In this document: positions 1,167 through 9,470 of the stretch, piece by piece
How the letters are laid out: each line of letters begins with the position of its first letter
How positions within the stretch are numbered: the first letter of the stretch is position 1
NCBI GenBank assembly: GCA_024400715.1
Contig: JAKSMH010000021.1
Location: forward strand, 1-9,470
Length of the DNA stretch: 9,470 nt
Reading direction: 5' to 3'
Source: Bacteroidales bacterium
Lineage (GTDB): Bacteria > Bacteroidota > Bacteroidia > Bacteroidales > WCHB1-69
Position numbers and translations under genes: made by a program
Notes under the pieces: model-generated
Told to the model about the DNA's origin: nothing
Seen by the model: only the letters and a program-made list of their open reading frames with translations
Databases searched by the model: none

Positions 1167-1541
1167 CTATTTAGTTGCTTTCTTCTTGTTTGCAACAGTT
1201 TTCTTACGACCTTTACGCGTACGTGCGTTGTTCTTGGTACTTTGTCCACGTAACGGTAAACCGAGACGATGACGAATGCCTCTATAACATCCAATGTCCA
1301 TTAAACGTTTAATGTTCATTTGAACTTCCGAACGCAAAGCACCTTCTACCTTCATATCGTTAATCATTCCACGGAGTGCTGCCAACCCATCATCGTTCCA
1401 TTCATTTACCTTTTTGTCATGGCTGATACCGGCCTTGTCCAAAATCTGAGCGGCTGTGCTTCTGCCAATACCGAAGATGTAAGTCAAACCGATTACGCCT
1501 CTTTTGTTTTTAGGTAAATCAATACCTGCAATTCTTGCCAT
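1167..1541 (-). CDS. rpsM: 30S ribosomal protein S13
   Basis: S13 is in the 30S head, contacts the P-site tRNA with its C-terminal tail, and forms bridges to the 50S subunit. The 124-residue product starts [14 protein letters not shown] and contains the helix-hairpin-helix segment [12 protein letters not shown] (residues 19 to 30). It also has the motif [17 protein letters not shown] and a long basic tail ([10 protein letters not shown] and on). All of these are normal for bacterial S13. It is 31 bases after rpmJ, which is the standard order. Confidence 0.98.
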
Positions 1542-1572
1542 AGTTATAAATCTATTTTATTGTTAATACTTA

Positions 1573-1689
1573 TTATCCTTGACGTTGTTTTTCTTTTGGA
1601 TTCTTTTTGTTAATTACATAGACTACGCCGTGTCTTCTCACGATGACGCAATCTTCAGATCTCTTTTTTACTGATGTTCTTACTTTCAT
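1573..1689 (-). CDS. rpmJ: 50S ribosomal protein L36 (zinc-free form)
   Basis: This gene was found by reading the 31 bases-plus gap between infA and rpsM. The minus strand has ATG at 1687-1689 and TAA at 1573-1575, encoding 38 residues that begin [14 protein letters not shown] and end NPKEKQRQG, a clear L36. L36 binds 23S rRNA near the base of the L7/L12 stalk. Zinc-binding L36 has three cysteines and a histidine; here only one cysteine (residue 14) remains and the histidine is replaced, so it is the C-minus form that needs no zinc. Spacing is 24 bases from infA and 31 to rpsM. The sequence CAAGAG just before ATG is a weak ribosome site at best. Confidence 0.96.
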
Positions 1690-1713
1690 CTCTTGATTTG
1701 CTTTATGTTATTT

Positions 1714-1935
1714 TTATGATTTATGTCTAAAAGTGATACGTCCCTTTGTCAAATCGTATGGAGACATTTCCACCTGCACCTTGTCACCGGGAAGAATCTT
1801 GATATAATGCAATCTCATCTTACCGGAAATATGCGCGGTGATGACGTGACCGTTTTCCAGCTGCACACGAAACATCGCATTCCCCAGTGATTCGATGACT
1901 ACGCCGTCTAACTCGATGGATGATTGTTTTGCCAT
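1714..1935 (-). CDS. infA: Translation initiation factor IF-1
   Basis: IF-1 binds the A site of the 30S subunit and works with IF-2 and IF-3 in start codon selection. The start at 1935 gives [13 protein letters not shown] and 73 residues, matching the usual 72. A longer frame opens at 1980 but would overlap the end of map and add 15 unsupported residues. The OB-fold protein shows the family core [18 protein letters not shown] and [18 protein letters not shown], and the ending [13 protein letters not shown]. It follows map by 10 bases and precedes rpmJ by 24. Confidence 0.97.
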
Positions 1936-1945
1936 ATATCTTATT

Positions 1946-2746
1946 TTATAATTTTTCTTCTGTTCCGAGAACCTCTCCAATTAATTTGTACGTTGATAAA
2001 ACTCTTGGTCCGTTTTTGGTGATAGCCAACTGGTGTTCGTAATGCGCAGCAGGTTTGTGGTCAAAGGTTCTGATGGTCCATTCATCACGTTCGCAATAAA
2101 TTTTGCGAGACCCCATTGTTATCATCGGTTCGATGCAGATGACCATTCCTTCTCGCAAGAGGTCGCCCTTACCGGGTTTGCCGTAATTGCAGACATCAGG
2201 TTTCTCGTGCATATTTCTACCGATTCCATGACCGCACAATTCGCGTACCACTCCGTAACCAAACGACTCACAGTAAGTCTGCACCGCATGTCCAATGTCG
2301 CCGGTGGTATTTCCCGCCACAGCCGCGTCGATGCCCCGATAGAGCGACTCCTTGGTGCGTTCCATCAGGAGTCTTTTTTCTTCGGAAACATTTCCTACCG
2401 CGAAGGTATAGGCGTAATCGCCGTGATAGCCGTTCAGGTAGGCACCGCAATCGACGGAAACGATATCGCCGTCGTTGAGGACGCTGTTGTCCGGGATTCC
2501 GTGAACAACCACATCGTCAACCGAGATACATAAGGAGGCGGGATAACCATTATAGCCCTTAAAGGAAGGAACACCGCCATTGTCCCTGATGAAAGTTTCC
2601 GCAATTCGATCCAAATAGGTTAACGGAACTCCCGGTTTGATGTACTTTGCCACTTCGGCCAAAGTTTTTCCAACAAGCAAAGAACTTTTTTGTATTATTT
2701 CAATTTCCTCTTCGCTTTTCAAGCGAATCTTGTTAAACATATTCAT
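1946..2746 (-). CDS. map: Methionine aminopeptidase, type I
   Basis: The enzyme removes the initiator methionine from new proteins when the second residue is small. The 266-residue product has all five metal ligands of the pita-bread fold in place (Asp99, Asp110, His173, Glu206, Glu238), plus His82 and His180 of the active site. These sit in [45 protein letters not shown] and HYEHQLAIT. The lack of an N-terminal zinc-finger extension places it with the bacterial type Ia enzymes. The secY stop and the map start overlap by one base (TAATG), which suggests translational coupling. A second ATG two codons downstream, giving MFNKIRLK, is an alternative start. Confidence 0.97.
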
Positions 2747-4101
2747 TAATAAGCACCGCCGCTGTAGCGTCCTTTAATTCTACCTGATTGAGTCAAGCCG
2801 TCATAGTGTCTCATCAACAAATGACTTTCGATTTGCTGAAGTGTATCAAGAACGACACCCACCATAATCAACAAGGAAGTACCACCGAAGAATTGGGCGA
2901 ACTGTTGGTTAACGCCGAACAATCTAACGATAGCAGGAAGGATAGCCACGATTGCCAAGAAAATAGAACCCGGAAGGGTGATTCTTGACATAATGTCGTC
3001 AATGTATTGAGCCGTTTGCTTACCAGGTTTCACGCCAGGGATAAATCCACCGTTTTTCTTCAAATCTTCAGAAATCTGCTGAGGATTGATGGTGATAGCC
3101 GTATAGAAATAAGTAAAGGCGATAATCATAATGAAGAATACGATATTGTAACCCAGTCCATTATAATCGATAAAGCTGTGCCAGAAACCGCCGGTTGACT
3201 GTTCGGTAACAGATACGAAAGTCAAAGGCAGGAACATAATCGCCTGAGCAAAGATGATGGGCATAACGCCGGCAGCGTTCACTTTCAAAGGAAGGAAGTT
3301 ACGCACACCACCGTATTGTTTGTTGCCCACGATTCTCTTGGCATATTGAACTGGAACACGACGTGTGCCTTGAACCAGCATAATACACAAGGCGATGATA
3401 AGCATCATCAGGACGATTTCAATGATAAAGATGATAGGACCACCGTTCATATCACCGATACGGGAGATGAATTCGGCTCTCAGGGCGTAAGGCAAACGAG
3501 CAATGATACCGATCATAATGATCATAGAGATACCGTTACCAATACCGTTATCCGTAATACGTTCACCCAACCACATAATGAACAGGGTACCTGAAATCAA
3601 GAGGATGAATGAGGTAACGGCAAACGCGCTAAATCCCAGGATATGGGTATTCAACATTGTTGGAGAAACGGCACCACCGAATTGACCTTGGATGTTGGCG
3701 ATATAGGCTGGTCCTTGGATAGCCACAACTGCCACGGTCAAGTAACGGGTAATTTGGTTCAGTTTCTTTCTACCGCTTTCACCTTCCTTTTGAAGACGCT
3801 GGAAGTAAGGAACCGCCAAGGTCATCAACTGGATAACGATAGATGCGGAAATGTAAGGCATGATACCCAGTGCGAAGATGGAAGCATTAGAGAATGCGCC
3901 ACCTGAGAACAAATCGAGCATACCCAACAGACCTTCTTGTGCCGATTTAGTAAATGCTGACAATGCGCCAGGGTTGATACCCGGAAGCACCACGTGAGCA
4001 CCTAAACGGTAAATCAGAATGATGAAAAGCGTATAGAGGATTCTCTTACGCAAATCTTCAATTCTAAAAATGTTTTTTATGGTCTCGATAAATTTTTTCA
4101 T
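2746..4101 (-). CDS. secY: Protein translocase channel subunit SecY
   Basis: SecY is the pore of the SecYEG translocon in the inner membrane, used by SecA for export and by the ribosome and SRP for membrane insertion. The 451-residue product has ten hydrophobic segments and is close to normal length. Recognisable parts are the plug and second membrane segment region (LGIMPYISASIVIQL, about 78-92), GERITDNGIGNGIS (179-192), the cytosolic loop RRVPVQYAKR (247-256), and the loop FIPGVKPGKQTAQYID (353-368). That last loop carries a lysine where E. coli has the conserved Arg357. The gene is 33 bases after rplO and overlaps map by one base. Co-transcription with ribosomal genes ties channel supply to growth rate. 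Confidence 0.98.
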   Translation of the reverse strand: MKKFIETIKNIFRIEDLRKRILYTLFIILIYRLGAHVVLPGINPGALSAFTKSAQEGLLGMLDLFSGGAFSNASIFALGIMPYISASIVIQLMTLAVPYFQRLQKEGESGRKKLNQITRYLTVAVVAIQGPAYIANIQGQFGGAVSPTMLNTHILGFSAFAVTSFILLISGTLFIMWLGERITDNGIGNGISMIIMIGIIARLPYALRAEFISRIGDMNGGPIIFIIEIVLMMLIIALCIMLVQGTRRVPVQYAKRIVGNKQYGGVRNFLPLKVNAAGVMPIIFAQAIMFLPLTFVSVTEQSTGGFWHSFIDYNGLGYNIVFFIMIIAFTYFYTAITINPQQISEDLKKNGGFIPGVKPGKQTAQYIDDIMSRITLPGSIFLAIVAILPAIVRLFGVNQQFAQFFGGTSLLIMVGVVLDTLQQIESHLLMRHYDGLTQSGRIKGRYSGGAY

Positions 4102-4134
4102 GAGATATAAAATGATAAATAATACTTAGGTTGG

Positions 4135-4608
4135 TTATTCCGCAGCAGGAGCTTCTGCGGCACCGATAACGTTGATTTGTCCACCGGCGTTAGTGATGGC
4201 AGCCTTAGCTGTTTCAGAGAAAGCGTGAGCAGAAACCTTCAAAGCGGCTTTCAATTCACCTCTACCCAACACCTTAACCAAGCTGTTTTTCTTTGCCAAA
4301 CCGTTAGCAAGCAAAACTTCGGGCGTGATTTCGCTCAAGTTCTTGCTTTCGGCTAAGGTCTGAAGCGTTCCAATATTAATGGCGTTATATTCAACGCGAT
4401 TGATATTTTTGAAACCTCTCTTAGGCATAATTCTGTAAATAGGCATTTGACCGCCTTCGAAACCAATCTTGCGGCTATAGCCAGATCTTGACTGAGCTCC
4501 CTTATGACCTCTTGTAGAAGTACCACCTTTACCTGATCCTTGACCTCTACCTACTCTTTTTGACAATTTTGTAGCGTTTTCAGCTGGTTTTAAACTATTC
4601 AAATTCAT
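4135..4608 (-). CDS. rplO: 50S ribosomal protein L15
   Basis: L15 is a late-assembly 50S protein that contacts many 23S rRNA domains. The 157-residue product has the L15 N-terminus MNLNSLKPAENATK and a glycine- and basic-rich extension (KRVGRGQGSGKGGTSTRGHK, about 18-37) that threads into rRNA. It also has GFEGGQMPIYRIMPKRGF and a globular C-terminal domain ending in an alanine-rich tail about ten residues longer than in E. coli. It follows rpmD by 32 bases and precedes secY by 33, the standard order. Confidence 0.98.
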   Translation of the reverse strand: MNLNSLKPAENATKLSKRVGRGQGSGKGGTSTRGHKGAQSRSGYSRKIGFEGGQMPIYRIMPKRGFKNINRVEYNAINIGTLQTLAESKNLSEITPEVLLANGLAKKNSLVKVLGRGELKAALKVSAHAFSETAKAAITNAGGQINVIGAAEAPAAE

Positions 4609-4640
4609 CTCTTATGCTAATTTCAAGATTAATAAACTAA

Positions 4641-4820
4641 TTAAATTTCTTCTACTGAAACCAAATGCTTAATGGAATCAACGATACCCAAAATCTGAGG
4701 TGTAGCATTGTGTTCAACGGTTTGGTGCATTTTTCTAAGACCTAATGCCTGGAGTGATCTTTTTTGGCGCAATGGTTTGTCGATAGCGCTTCTTGTTTGT
4801 GTGATTTTAATCCTTTTCAT
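4641..4820 (-). CDS. rpmD: 50S ribosomal protein L30
   Basis: L30 is a small 50S protein bound to 23S rRNA domain II. The chosen start at 4820 gives MKRIKITQTRSAIDKP and 59 residues, the usual size, and includes the core LGLRKMHQTVEHN. An in-frame ATG at 4853 would add 11 residues (MNLITKNNIEG) that are not part of the family. GAAGGG lies directly against the chosen ATG with no spacing, so neither start has a proper Shine-Dalgarno site. This is the first gene of the operon in this window. The usual upstream partner rpsE is missing and the gene instead follows a 210-base leader behind dnaJ. Confidence 0.95.
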   Translation of the reverse strand: MKRIKITQTRSAIDKPLRQKRSLQALGLRKMHQTVEHNATPQILGIVDSIKHLVSVEEI

Positions 4821-5036
4821 CCCTTCAATATTATTTTTTGTTATTAAATTCATTTCCGTTTAAAAGAAAAAATAGCGCAAATTTGGAAGAAAATTGCAAC
4901 TATTATTTCACATTTCGAACATCATAAAACCAAGCCCTTCTATCTTCAACATCGTTATAAAGTCCGTGAAATCAAGCAGTTGCGAGTCTTTCTATCGTTC
5001 AATTCCTACTTCTTCTATTTCACTTCAAAAGATGTG
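4821..5036 (-). promoter_or_regulatory. Leader of the rpmD operon with a long-range stem
   Basis: This gene-free stretch between dnaJ and rpmD would be the 5' untranslated RNA of the ribosomal operon. Read on the minus strand, GCAACT (4978-4983) and ATTTCAC (4966-4972) pair with GTGAAAT (4905-4911) and AGTTGC (4896-4901). That makes two stacked helices of 6 and 7 pairs with a 5/3 internal loop, closing a region of 54 bases. Ribosomal protein operons are often controlled by a product binding such a leader, so an autoregulatory element is a fair inference. No end of an rpsE gene was found here. A short frame inside the loop (ATG at 4945-4947, 14 codons) lacks support as a gene. Confidence 0.45.
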
Positions 5037-5044
5037 CAAATATA
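5037..5044 (-). promoter_or_regulatory. Promoter -7 element for the rpmD operon
   Basis: On the minus strand the bases read TATATTTG, a perfect match to the Bacteroides -7 element TAnnTTTG. It is followed by CACATC and lies about 40 bases after the dnaJ stop codon. Transcription would begin near 5030. A clear -33 TTG at the usual spacing was not seen; the upstream region is very A/T-rich. This would give the ribosomal genes their own start independent of grpE-dnaJ. Confidence 0.65.
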
Positions 5045-5084
5045 CGACTTTTTTTATTGATTTTATATTGTTGATAACTTTTTT

Positions 5085-6188
5085 TTATTCAAAGAATTGA
5101 CGCACCCGATTAAAGAAGCCCTTATCGCTTTTATTCGGCTTCGGTTTGAAGTTTTCCGACTCCGCGAATTTCTCGATGGCGGCCTTTTCCTCCTTGTTCA
5201 AGTTTTTCGGTGTCCACACGTTTACATTCACGATCAAATCGCCCATCATCCGGCTATTCAGTTCAGGCAGTCCCTTTCCTTGAAGACGCAAAATCTGTCC
5301 GCTCTGCGTTCCGGCGGCAATTTTGATTCGGGCCTTTCCTGTCAAGGTAGGCACTTCGACACTAGCACCTAAAGCCGCCTGTGGGAATGACACGTAATAA
5401 TTTGTATATATATTATTGCCATTTCTTTCAAAGAGTTCGTGTTCCTGTTCCTCTATCAACACCAGCAAATCGCCGTTCACGCCTCCATTGGGGGCGGCAT
5501 TGCCTTTACCGCGCATCGTCAGTTGCATACCCTCGGCAACGCCCGCCGGGATGTTGATTGAAACGACCTCCTCGCCTTTTACCACGCCGTTTCCGCCGCA
5601 ATGAGGGCACTTGTCCTTAATCACCTGACCGCTGCCATTGCAATTCGGGCATACGGACACCTGCTGCATCATACCGAACATCGTCCGCTGCTGGTTAATC
5701 ACCTGGCCACTTCCCTTGCAGGTCGGGCACGTAGTGATTGCGTTTTTATCTTTTGCCCCGGTACCATCGCAATGGGTACAAGGAATATATTTCTGTATCT
5801 TGATTTTCTTTTCGACACCCGAATTGATTTCTTCCAGGGTCAACTTGACCTTGATGCGGATATTGGAACCCTGACGTACTCGCTTTCCGCCACCGCGACC
5901 ACTTCCGCCGCCAAAACCACCGAAACCTGAAAAACCCGAAAAACCACCACCAAAAAGGTCGCCAAACCTTTCAAAGATGGTATTCAAGTCAAAATCAACA
6001 TTATAACCGCCACCGGCACCGCCCATTCCCGCGTGACCGAACTGGTCATAACGGGCCTTTTTATCCGGATTACTCAAAACATCGTAGGCCTCTGCCGCCT
6101 CCTTAAATCTCTCCTCCGCCTCCTTGTTTCCCGGATTCCTCGCCGTTTTCTCAACGCCGAGCACTTCGTAATTATCTCTTTTTTCCAT
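5085..6188 (-). CDS. dnaJ: Chaperone DnaJ lacking the HPD part of its J domain
   Basis: DnaJ (Hsp40) binds unfolded protein and passes it to DnaK, stimulating DnaK's ATPase through the J domain. The 367-residue product has a Gly/Phe-rich region (about 54-105), four zinc motifs CTHCDGTG, CPTCKGSG, CPNCNGSG and CPHCGGNG (137-201), and a complete client-binding C-terminal region. The J domain is broken. It reads NYEVLGVEKTA followed directly by RNPGNKEAEERFKEAAEAYDVL. By comparison with E. coli DnaJ about 19 residues are missing, including most of helix II and the whole HPD motif needed to activate DnaK. The gap is in frame. The ATG at 6188 is preceded by AGAGGAG at good spacing, a strong ribosome site for this phylum. 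It follows grpE by 52 bases. The protein may be a holdase only, or the gap may be an assembly error. Confidence 0.93.
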   Translation of the reverse strand: MEKRDNYEVLGVEKTARNPGNKEAEERFKEAAEAYDVLSNPDKKARYDQFGHAGMGGAGGGYNVDFDLNTIFERFGDLFGGGFSGFSGFGGFGGGSGRGGGKRVRQGSNIRIKVKLTLEEINSGVEKKIKIQKYIPCTHCDGTGAKDKNAITTCPTCKGSGQVINQQRTMFGMMQQVSVCPNCNGSGQVIKDKCPHCGGNGVVKGEEVVSINIPAGVAEGMQLTMRGKGNAAPNGGVNGDLLVLIEEQEHELFERNGNNIYTNYYVSFPQAALGASVEVPTLTGKARIKIAAGTQSGQILRLQGKGLPELNSRMMGDLIVNVNVWTPKNLNKEEKAAIEKFAESENFKPKPNKSDKGFFNRVRQFFE

Positions 6189-6240
6189 AACAAGCTCCTC
6201 TTTAATTCGTCCTACAACCCAACAAATCGTTCATTCAAAA

Positions 6241-6915
6241 CTAATTAGCAACGACCACTTTGGCATAACGGATTACCTTATCCTTTATTTTATACCCCTT
6301 TTCAGTCACATCCATTACCTTTCCCTTTTCCGCTTCATCCTGGGTGGGAAAATGTGTGACGGCTTCGTGAAAATCGGTATTAAAAACCTCGCCCTTGGCC
6401 TGAATCTCTTCCACGTTGAAGCGTTTTAGCAATTGAACCAACTTATTGTAAATCAATACGAAACCCTCTTTGATAGCAACTACGTCCTCGGATTTTTCAT
6501 TAGCGGCGATGGCTCTTTCATAATCATCAATAACGGGAAGGAGATTGACGATGACTTTTTCCGAAGCCGTAGAAAGCAATTCCAATTTTTCCTTATTGGT
6601 GCGCTTTTTATAATTATCAAATTCGGAATACATACGCAAGAACCTGTCATTCAGCTCTTTATATTTGATATCCAAATCTTCTAATTGTTTTTTCAGTTCC
6701 TCTTCCTTCGAAGATTTTTTACCGAAAAACTTATTTCTCTTTTCTTCAGTATGATTATCTTCACTGCTTTCTGGAACAGTTTTTTCCTCACTATCCGTAT
6801 TCTGCTGAGTCTCGTTTTCTTTGTCAGTTTCAACTGACATATTGTCATTATTCTGCTGACAATTTACATTTTCGTTATTCTCAGCAGTCATTTCAGCTTT
6901 TTCTTCATTTTCCAT
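6241..6915 (-). CDS. grpE: Nucleotide exchange factor GrpE
   Basis: GrpE releases ADP from DnaK and so resets the chaperone cycle; it acts as a cytosolic dimer. The 224-residue product has a long polar tail rich in Asn, Glu and Gln (1-60), then a coiled-coil helix from about 68 to 110 (EEELKKQLEDLDIKYKELND and on). The family core is NLLPVIDDYERA, and the C-terminal beta domain holds the signature FNTDFHEAV through VTEKGYKIKDKVIRYAKVVV. The tail is somewhat longer than in most relatives. It lies 74 bases after mazG, with a sigma-54 type promoter in that gap, and 52 bases before dnaJ. No Shine-Dalgarno site is seen; the region before ATG is AT-rich, as is normal in this phylum. Confidence 0.97.
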   Translation of the reverse strand: MENEEKAEMTAENNENVNCQQNNDNMSVETDKENETQQNTDSEEKTVPESSEDNHTEEKRNKFFGKKSSKEEELKKQLEDLDIKYKELNDRFLRMYSEFDNYKKRTNKEKLELLSTASEKVIVNLLPVIDDYERAIAANEKSEDVVAIKEGFVLIYNKLVQLLKRFNVEEIQAKGEVFNTDFHEAVTHFPTQDEAEKGKVMDVTEKGYKIKDKVIRYAKVVVAN

Positions 6916-6972
6916 AATATATTGATTTTTAAATCTCTACGAAATAAATTTAATCATTATCATTTATATATT

Positions 6973-6988
6973 AGCAAGATTTATGCCA
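6973..6988 (-). promoter_or_regulatory. Sigma-54 type -24/-12 promoter before grpE
   Basis: On the minus strand the bases read TGGCATAAATCTTGCT, a full match to the sigma-54 consensus TGGCAYRNNNNTTGCW with the required 12-base distance between the GG and GC pairs. It begins two bases after the mazG stop codon and would start transcription near 6962, about 47 bases before the grpE ATG. No good TAnnTTTG element is present in the same spacer, which makes this the best promoter candidate for grpE-dnaJ. An enhancer-binding protein would be needed; its site was not identified. Confidence 0.5.
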
Positions 6989-6989
6989 A

Positions 6990-7757
6990 TTATTTTTTGG
7001 CCTGCTGCCAATATTCTTCCATTTCGTCAAGGGTAAGGTCACCGATGGAGCGTCCCGACTCTTTTGCCTTTTGTTCAATATATTGAAAGCGTTGGATAAA
7101 CTTGCGATTGGTTTTTTCGAGTGCGTCTTCGGGATTGACGTTAATAAAACGGGCGTAATTGACCAGGGCGAAAAGCACATCGCCAAATTCCTCCTCTACC
7201 CTATCTGACTGTTGTTCCAATTCGGCTTTCAGCTCTCCGATTTCCTCTTCCACCTTATCCCAGACCTCATCAGCATTATGCCAATCGAAGCCGACGCCGC
7301 GAGCTTTTTCCTGGATTCGGTAGGATTTGATCATGGCGGGTAGTGAAACCGGGACACCGCCTAAGACGGAGCGGTTACCTTCCCTTTGCAATTTGATTTT
7401 TTCCCAATTGTTTCTGACGTCTTCGGCGGTTTCGGCCTTGGCGTCACCGAAAATATGAGGATGGCGACGAATCAACTTTTCGCAAATGCCATTAGCCACA
7501 TCGGCCACATCAAACAGATTTTGTTCAGAGCCGATTTTGGAATAGAAAACGATATGGAGCAGCAAATCGCCGAGTTCCTTGCTCATTTCATCATATTTCT
7601 TATCGATGATGGCATCGGAAAGTTCGTAGGTTTCTTCGATGGTAAGATAGCGAAGACTATCGAAGGTTTGTGTACTATCCCAAGGACATTTTTCGCGGAG
7701 TTCGTCCATAATGTCCAACAGTCGCTTAAAGGCGACCAATCTTTTATCTTCTAACAT
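6990..7757 (-). CDS. mazG: Nucleoside triphosphate pyrophosphohydrolase MazG
   Basis: MazG hydrolyses nucleoside triphosphates to monophosphates and pyrophosphate, cleaning damaged nucleotides and, in E. coli, limiting ppGpp. The 255-residue product has the tandem MazG layout. The first domain has EETYE (41-45) with ELGD (61-64), and the second has EEEIGE (170-175) with EEFGD (189-193), which are the metal-binding EExxE and ExxD motifs. The family start CPWDSTQTFDSLRYLTIEE is clear. The start at 7757 (MLEDKRLVAF) was chosen; an ATG at 7850 would add 31 unsupported residues and run into crcB. A -7 element lies 22 bases before the chosen start. Confidence 0.96.
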   Translation of the reverse strand: MLEDKRLVAFKRLLDIMDELREKCPWDSTQTFDSLRYLTIEETYELSDAIIDKKYDEMSKELGDLLLHIVFYSKIGSEQNLFDVADVANGICEKLIRRHPHIFGDAKAETAEDVRNNWEKIKLQREGNRSVLGGVPVSLPAMIKSYRIQEKARGVGFDWHNADEVWDKVEEEIGELKAELEQQSDRVEEEFGDVLFALVNYARFINVNPEDALEKTNRKFIQRFQYIEQKAKESGRSIGDLTLDEMEEYWQQAKK

Positions 7758-7778
7758 AGTTTGGAATTTTTCTGTTTG

Positions 7779-7786
7779 CAAAAATA
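7779..7786 (-). promoter_or_regulatory. Promoter -7 element for mazG
   Basis: The minus strand reads TATTTTTG, a full TAnnTTTG match, with TTTG at 7810-7813 as a possible -33 element 23 bases upstream, slightly long for the usual spacing. Transcription would start near 7772, giving a leader of about 15 bases. The gap between crcB and mazG is 70 bases and shows no clear terminator, so read-through from crcB is also possible. Confidence 0.5.
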
Positions 7787-7827
7787 CGAAAAATAAGGGC
7801 AGATTTATGCAAATTTCAGGTTCAAAA

Positions 7828-8199
7828 TTACATAACCATTTTTCTTCCAATGAAGAACAGCAGCATACCCACCACGATGCTCAAGGTCATATAGGCCAAT
7901 GCCGTCCAGCAGCGACCGGAGTCCATCAAGCGGAAAACATCGGCGGTAAAGGTGGAGAAAGTGGTAAAGGCACCGCAAAAGCCGACCGTCAGCAGCAGGT
8001 AAGTTGTTTCGGACAAGGCCGTTGATTTTTGGGCACATCCCATCAGGATGCCCATCAGGAAGCAGCCCAACACATTAACGACGAAGGTGCCTAACGGCAG
8101 TGAAGCAAAGCGCCAATGGGAGCAGCCTAAGCCCACGAGGTAGCGCGACACGGTGCCTAAGGAGCCACCCAACATCACAAAAAGAATATTTTTCAGCAT
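7828..8199 (-). CDS. crcB: Fluoride ion channel Fluc/CrcB
   Basis: Fluc channels export fluoride across the inner membrane as dual-topology dimers. The 123-residue product has four hydrophobic segments (about 3-22, 33-55, 66-87 and 97-118). The family motifs are GGSLGTVSRY (11-20), GTFVVNVLGCFLMG (37-50) with the conserved asparagine at 42, and GFCGAFTTFSTF (73-84), which holds the fluoride-lining phenylalanines and the central sodium site. The third motif has alanine where glycine is most common. Being a single short copy, it should form a homodimer. It follows a leader of about 187 bases. The known fluoride riboswitch was looked for there and not found. Confidence 0.95.
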   Translation of the reverse strand: MLKNILFVMLGGSLGTVSRYLVGLGCSHWRFASLPLGTFVVNVLGCFLMGILMGCAQKSTALSETTYLLLTVGFCGAFTTFSTFTADVFRLMDSGRCWTALAYMTLSIVVGMLLFFIGRKMVM

Positions 8200-8623: not shown

Positions 8624-9470
8624 ATGAATCGGTTAAAATGGCTCATCGTATTCCTCGCAATGTTTTCTCCATCTTACGCACAGCAGTTCAAATTGGTAGA
8701 AGATACCATACGGATTAATGCCGCCGATTACATAAGTCCTATTTCAACATTTGAAATGAAATGGGCAGCAAAATATCACGGCTTTTATTTTTGCATTTTC
8801 CAAGACCAACATATCTATTTGCATTGGATATCTAAGCATCGCTTATTGGTCATTTCTGAAGACGGGAAAGATATGATGGAGGTAAGTTTGCCTAAAGATT
8901 TTCAAAGAAACTATTATGGTGACCTTTTTGTTCGTCATGATACACTTTTTCTAAGACCATATCAGCCTGATAAAGAACAAAATGGCTATTATTTTGATAT
9001 GGATACATGGCAATGGATGCCCGTTGACATGGTTTCCAATGTGATATATGATGACGACCAATATTGTGTCGCAACGATAGATATGGGCGAATGGGGGGAA
9101 TACACTTGGTTTATGGACAAGAAAGTGCCGTATGTCGATACGCGATATCGCACGCCCCAAATAAGCAGCGACATTTGGGATGCTTCTTCGTCAGTTACGG
9201 TTAAGCCCGCCCATCCAAAAATTAAAGAAACTATGCGCCAATACATTATGCCTAGAAAATTATCACGTATTATCAAAAAAGACGGTGCATATTATTTCAT
9301 TTGTGGAAATAAGGTGGATACTTTGATTTCTTTGAAAGGGAAAGCACAATTGTGTGAAGACAACCAAACCTATGAGGCTGTTGTGCGTGATGGGCATAAT
9401 TATCTATATAGCCTTGGTAGTTGGGGATGCGTAGATACGCTAAGCACTACTCCCATTCCTACCTTATTCC
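8624..9470 (+). CDS. Secreted protein of unknown function, 3' end outside window
   Basis: A frame opens at ATG 8624 and stays open for 282 codons to the window edge, so the protein is longer than that. It starts MNRLKWLIVFLAMFSPSYAQ, a signal peptide with a likely type I cleavage after SYA, which places the mature protein in the periplasm or outside. The mature part is rich in aromatic residues and has alternating short hydrophobic strands with Asp-Gly turns (for example HRLLVISEDGKDMMEV and DGHNYLYSLGSWG). This suggests an all-beta fold such as a propeller; it is an inference from pattern only. No lipobox cysteine, catalytic motif or known family was recognised. It is divergent from crcB, has its own promoter, and shows no clear link to its neighbours. 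Confidence 0.8.
   Translation, partial: MNRLKWLIVFLAMFSPSYAQQFKLVEDTIRINAADYISPISTFEMKWAAKYHGFYFCIFQDQHIYLHWISKHRLLVISEDGKDMMEVSLPKDFQRNYYGDLFVRHDTLFLRPYQPDKEQNGYYFDMDTWQWMPVDMVSNVIYDDDQYCVATIDMGEWGEYTWFMDKKVPYVDTRYRTPQISSDIWDASSSVTVKPAHPKIKETMRQYIMPRKLSRIIKKDGAYYFICGNKVDTLISLKGKAQLCEDNQTYEAVVRDGHNYLYSLGSWGCVDTLSTTPIPTLF

Follow-up and report, generated by a model that had tools for sequence, protein, structure and literature searches.

Class A DnaJ proteins (Hsp40) are defined by an N-terminal J domain with the motif HPD, a central zinc finger with CXXCXGXG repeats, and C-terminal client-binding domains. According to the available part of PMC8215388, H33, P34, and D35 of E. coli DnaJ contact DnaK, and the positive residues R22, K26, R27, K48, and K51 help to position the J domain; no Hsp70 stimulation was left in any system tested once H or D of HPD had been replaced. 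In Salmonella, DnaJ with the H33Q replacement has been reported still to bind clients and act as an oxidoreductase in vitro, with an H2O2 sensitivity equal to that of the null (available sections of PMC8262869). Four heat-selected laboratory mutations of dnaJ, as far as the excerpt of PMC10537758 describes them, include no J-domain deletion and have no direct bearing here. As to the essentiality of DnaJ in Bacteroides, the main text of PMC10197588 makes no mention of the protein. A natural HPD-less or J-domain-deleted bacterial DnaJ was not recognised in the literature as judged by titles and the openings of abstracts, which is no proof of absence.

The DNA analysed here (the window) is a stretch of 9,470 nucleotides of contig JAKSMH010000021.1, from a Bacteroidales bacterium. 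Its dnaJ lacks the HPD-bearing part of the J domain. This lesion, whether real or an error, is very probably an isolated one and not a trait of the lineage.

The Gap in dnaJ

The gene was called as a single open frame of 367 amino acids, and the gap lies close to its start.

5085-6188, minus strand: dnaJ, a class A DnaJ whose J domain is without helix II and HPD (open reading frame; DnaJ_C and DnaJ central domain above the Pfam cut-off; identical to the closest relative found, P0001, at 365 of 367 aligned residues)
6140-6141, minus strand: deletion join, with 57 nt (19 codons, P0001 residues 17-35) missing between GCG (A16) and AGG (R)

The N terminus of the encoded protein is MEKRDNYEVLGVEKTA-RNPGNKEAEERFKE, in which T15-A16 is joined directly to R-N-P-G; in the DNA, GCG ends at base 6141 and AGG starts at 6140. 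In the protein alignment with P0001, exactly 19 residues are missing, namely 17-35, which comprise helix II and the HPD motif (H33-P34-D35). P0001 has these three residues at the E. coli numbers together with K22, R26, and K27, all within the stretch missing from the window. The same offset of 19 is given by the 5nro chain, where residues 15-84 of the query align to chain positions 34-107; the part of PMC8215388 available identifies this chain as the J domain of E. coli DnaJ. An earlier note on this DNA, which had described a DnaJ deprived of helix II and HPD by an in-frame gap and had counted 19 residues between the same anchors in E. coli DnaJ, is thus confirmed as to the gap, and the offset of the 5nro chain agrees with its count. 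The window gene also has an in-frame ATG at codon 55, an internal start that would yield a J-less protein.

Words of 12 bases taken from 6100-6188 are not repeated in the window, and exact words common to the two 300-base flanks reach 9 bases at most; therefore, the window holds no repeat for an assembler to collapse. Clear microhomology at the join was not seen in the DNA of relatives, which stood in for the parent DNA. The missing stretch was also looked for elsewhere in the window, in case it had moved, and only weak matches came up (E 2.3 and above).

Domains and Predicted Structure

The Pfam J domain, PF00226, is still found above its cut-off in the window DnaJ (32.2 vs 27.8 bits), but it covers only profile positions 32-63 of 63. 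The central zinc domain PF00684 lies at residues 137-201 (E 1.4e-19) and DnaJ_C, PF01556, at residues 110-327 (E 3.8e-48).

5586-5780, minus strand: zinc-finger (CXXCXGXG) domain, intact (PF00684 residues 137-201 converted to window coordinates; pLDDT block means 84-93)

Hence, the zinc finger (PF00684 and a confident model) and the client-binding domains (PF01556) of a class A DnaJ are present, and an N-terminal J domain with HPD is not, residues 17-35 being absent. Among the NCBIfam models, NF008035 is passed (358.2 vs a cut-off of 338), TIGR02349 is just missed (371.5 vs 377.2), and the remaining listed DnaJ models are also below their cut-offs; the full DnaJ models match the protein only from profile positions 32-39 onward. 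That the zinc fingers, the client-binding domain, and the GrpE partner are intact and the frame is kept, as the earlier note had it, is borne out by the Pfam matches and the one 367-residue frame.

The structure model used was built on 82 sequences; an earlier one, built on 11 close sequences (mean pLDDT 41), was set aside. The best fold match in the PDB is DnaJ 6jzb. The pLDDT block means are 84-95 for residues 111-340 and 58-65 for residues 21-50, while residues 1-20 have a pLDDT of about 40 and helix I is absent. The J remnant is gauged against the domains that follow it in this model, which are predicted with confidence; low confidence is a weak argument.

Comparison with Relatives

P0001 has 386 amino acids, stands for a cluster of 7 member sequences, and is found on 3 contigs; its source code, lgn, is taken here to stand for Logan assemblies. 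It possesses a full J domain including H33-P34-D35 and is aligned to the window DnaJ with 365 identities over 367 residues and one 19-residue gap. With such a sequence, P0001 would be a strain- or species-level relative. The nine next relatives aligned have a full J domain, as P0001 does. At the 90% identity to which the protein database is clustered, the window DnaJ has no row of its own and is probably hidden in the P0001 cluster.

The best 120 matches of each of two overlapping DnaJ searches, from 7718 and 7979 matches, comprise 228 other proteins. A gap anywhere in P0001 positions 17-35 occurs in 0/228 of these best-listed proteins, and the HPD site is nearly invariant among them (H33 in 227, P34 in 228, D35 in 228). 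The second search had query words from residues 1-50 including the join, which favors proteins with the same join, and none was present among its best 120 matches. The sole change at position 33 in this set is in P0173 (388 aa, one contig), which has LPD instead of HPD. In P0048 (574 aa), GrpE and DnaJ domains occur in a single frame with HPD kept, and GrpE-like sequence passes directly into the J domain shortly before helix II; a deletion or error across the same grpE/dnaJ boundary may be the cause.

The window DnaJ differs from P0001 at two aligned residues, one of which is close to the join.

6171-6173, minus strand: codon 6, AAT (N), with Y in 226 and F in 2 of the 228 other proteins

The change, Y6N, lies ten codons, or about 33 bases, from the join, inside one short-read length, and its position is compatible either with decay of a dead domain or with a bad read. 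The other difference, M for V at P0001 position 192, falls on a site that varies in the 228 best-listed proteins (I 85, T 66, V 21, M 17, among others).

At the level of genomes, the nearest locus is L001, from a horse faeces MAG (genome G001). HPD is present in 79 of 81 loci with a J-protein match, a set made of 63 loci with dnaJ matches, 7 repeats of the same dnaJ genes, 6 second J proteins, and 5 loci from the DnaJ survey of L001's order; the matches of the other two, L050 and L062, start past the HPD position, at residue 41 and residue 38, respectively. The join, written as a degenerate pattern, occurs in 0/393 genomes of that order (Bacteroidales). Two viral-contig matches to the pattern were rejected, being located in unrelated frames that are not DnaJ-like. 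The DnaJ survey of the 393 genomes gave a match in 392, above the cut-off in 365; it reports best-scoring matches only, all starting at profile position 1, so it cannot count damaged DnaJs and no rate was drawn from it. Among 41 genomes around G001, a full-profile J domain occurs in a frame of at least 380 aa in 36 and only in a shorter frame in 2 (G414, G024); 3 are without a full-profile J match (G400, G401, G370).

Gene Order around dnaJ

The neighbours of dnaJ are those of a standard locus. The genes dnaJ, grpE, mazG, and rpmD were named by Pfam and the other neighbours from their translations.

6241-6915, minus strand: grpE, directly upstream of dnaJ (PF01025 over profile positions 8-164 of 165)
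4641-4853, minus strand: rpmD (L30), next downstream of dnaJ (PF00327; same order in L001)

Downstream of dnaJ, the order is rpmD-rplO-secY-map-infA-rpsM-rpsK-rpsD. From crcB to rpsM the gene order is common to the window and L001, and the genes from S13 to L30 of the window have full matches there. The genes grpE and dnaJ adjoin in each of L001-L023, the 23 loci out of 63 that were compared. A GrpE identical to that of the window (P0229) is found on two contigs, i.e., on one further contig besides the window; a further GrpE of 97% identity occurs elsewhere.

Some features of the region stand apart from the gap. The gene dnaJ lies directly upstream of rpmD both in the window (4853-5085) and in G001 (L001 5152-5386). 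The secY regions retrieved from five other relatives have no dnaJ in that place, and on the one contig of G004 that holds both, dnaJ and secY are separated by about 355 kb; the adjacency looks like a rearrangement common to the two closest genomes. The synonymous distance to L001 is 0.09-0.37 in the ribosomal-secY genes (window 1167-4853) vs 0.84-1.86 in dnaJ, grpE, mazG, and crcB (5085-8199), with 0.21 for SecY and 1.16 for DnaJ. In six other unsaturated pairs, the values are 0.15-0.62 for SecY vs 0.23-1.08 for DnaJ and the step is smaller or absent; of 21 pairs, this comparison leaves out three that approach saturation (DnaJ 2.8-3.8) and eleven for which DnaJ gave no value. Recombination may lie behind this step. 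At 8624-9469, plus strand, an ATG-started open frame of 282 aa runs past the end of the window, and its start resembles a signal peptide.

Other J Proteins in Close Genomes

In each of 7 close genomes, a single frame of dnaJ size carries a full J domain, and 6 of the 7 have a second J protein. These six are 258-282 aa long and have HPD in a C-terminal J domain, which in L076 is truncated by the frame; they are presumed to be TerB/DjlA-like. The exception is G001, in which DnaJ was the only J protein found and which, as a 1.9 Mb MAG, may be incomplete. More widely, at least two J-domain matches (E 0.001 or better) were obtained in 34 of the 41 genomes around G001. On these sequence comparisons, another HPD protein in the cell of the window is possible.

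Origin of the Short Form

A recent and real deletion of 57 bases, in frame and private to the strain, in an otherwise ordinary dnaJ has about an even chance of being the explanation. The bases would then be missing in the organism and not merely in the contig, and the lost stretch would be the HPD loop with the positive helix II residues that dock on DnaK. Triggering of DnaK ATP hydrolysis is not expected, because the removed stretch holds both. The remaining functions would be at most client holding and zinc-finger activity, which would make this a loss-of-function or hypomorphic allele. If produced, the protein would hold clients and would not trigger DnaK, a predicted loss that fits established J-domain biochemistry. 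This reading is supported by P0001, with its full J domain and only 2 of 367 aligned residues different, by the lack of such a gap in the 228 best-listed proteins and of the join in the 393 genomes, by the preserved frame and the lack of a collapsible repeat in the window, and by a locus in the gene order of L001. Against it, the short form is known from one contig alone and the nearby Y6N would also suit a poor read. Loss of the J domain should be costly, and a deletion allele as the consensus of the sample would be surprising. An error of sequencing or assembly has a chance a little short of even: the organism would have a normal dnaJ, and the consensus at 6140-6173 would come from a faulty or chimeric low-coverage read. 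Such an origin would bring together the gap and a change at a near-invariant site within a few tens of bases in a gene otherwise nearly identical to P0001, and it agrees with the occurrence of the intact form on 3 contigs and of the short form on the window contig alone. Moreover, no other J protein was found in G001, and a true loss of HPD would leave a similar cell with none. However, the window offers no repeat by which an assembler could have passed over 57 bases; the reading frame is preserved, as it would be by only one in three errors of random length; and the remaining genes compared with L001 are full-length matches.

The earlier note had proposed, as alternatives, a recent deletion or assembly error and a lineage that uses a DnaK-independent DnaJ with another J protein supplying HPD. 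Its interpretation is supported in the former part, upheld as a pair by the intact and near-identical P0001 and by the lack of a second occurrence in the searches; the lineage-wide part is not supported, since P0001 (3 contigs) and the nine next relatives have a full J domain. Indeed, the alignment with close relatives that the note had suggested showed an intact J domain, and loss of this domain in more than one strain or species was encountered neither among the 228 best-listed proteins nor, by the join, in the 393 genomes. A working DnaK-independent DnaJ, acting as a holdase or zinc oxidoreductase while another HPD protein serves DnaK, is very improbable. The intact frame, zinc fingers, and client domains speak for it, as do the second J proteins of most close genomes and the activities that H33Q DnaJ retains in vitro; yet none of the relatives compared, P0001 included, has the loss, DnaJ is the only J protein found in the nearest genome, and Salmonella H33Q is null-like for H2O2 resistance, as far as the available sections go (PMC8262869). 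Just two other residue changes between the two forms give no sign of selective upkeep since the loss. Slightly less credible still is the fuller proposal of a natural gut-type Bacteroidales DnaJ that has shed the active J half and become a DnaK-free, client-holding or thiol-active chaperone, with a separate HPD protein for DnaK. The least credible account is a second, decaying copy, with an intact P0001-like dnaJ elsewhere in the genome. Two protein forms this close could share one genome, but the window gene occupies the standard locus, beside grpE and in the gene order of L001, and each of the 7 close genomes has a single dnaJ-sized frame with a full J domain.

Comparison with Known Systems

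The closest known proteins are the class A DnaJs of Bacteroidales, P0001 and then P0002-P0009 and that of L001. The window protein is like them in sequence and in domain order from the G/F region on, and the L001 gene lies beside grpE, as in the window. It differs from them in the absence of J-domain residues 17-35 and in its N at position 6. Laboratory DnaJ mutants (H33Q and an allele without the J and G/F domains; available sections of PMC8262869) keep the rest of DnaJ and have lost the triggering of DnaK, which in the window is only expected. In those described there, one residue was changed or whole domains were dropped, whereas in the window 19 residues are excised from the J domain. Were the short form real and common, such Bacteroidales would offer a natural test of life without a DnaK-triggering DnaJ. 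As a caution, a clean in-frame gap on one contig is not to be equated with a lineage trait before a close relative has been checked.

J-like proteins such as Pam16 retain the J fold, and their role is conserved. Pam16-type proteins without a working HPD share the absence of the motif with the window DnaJ; unlike them, the window protein misses a fold element and its form is on one contig. Cwc23 is a yeast splicing protein. Its J domain is dispensable, to judge from a title cited in PMC5473770, and its likeness to the window DnaJ is confined to a role that may not need the J domain. Taken with these systems, the window gene looks like a standard chaperone gene, damaged either itself or in its reading, known in kind and not a new type of chaperone.
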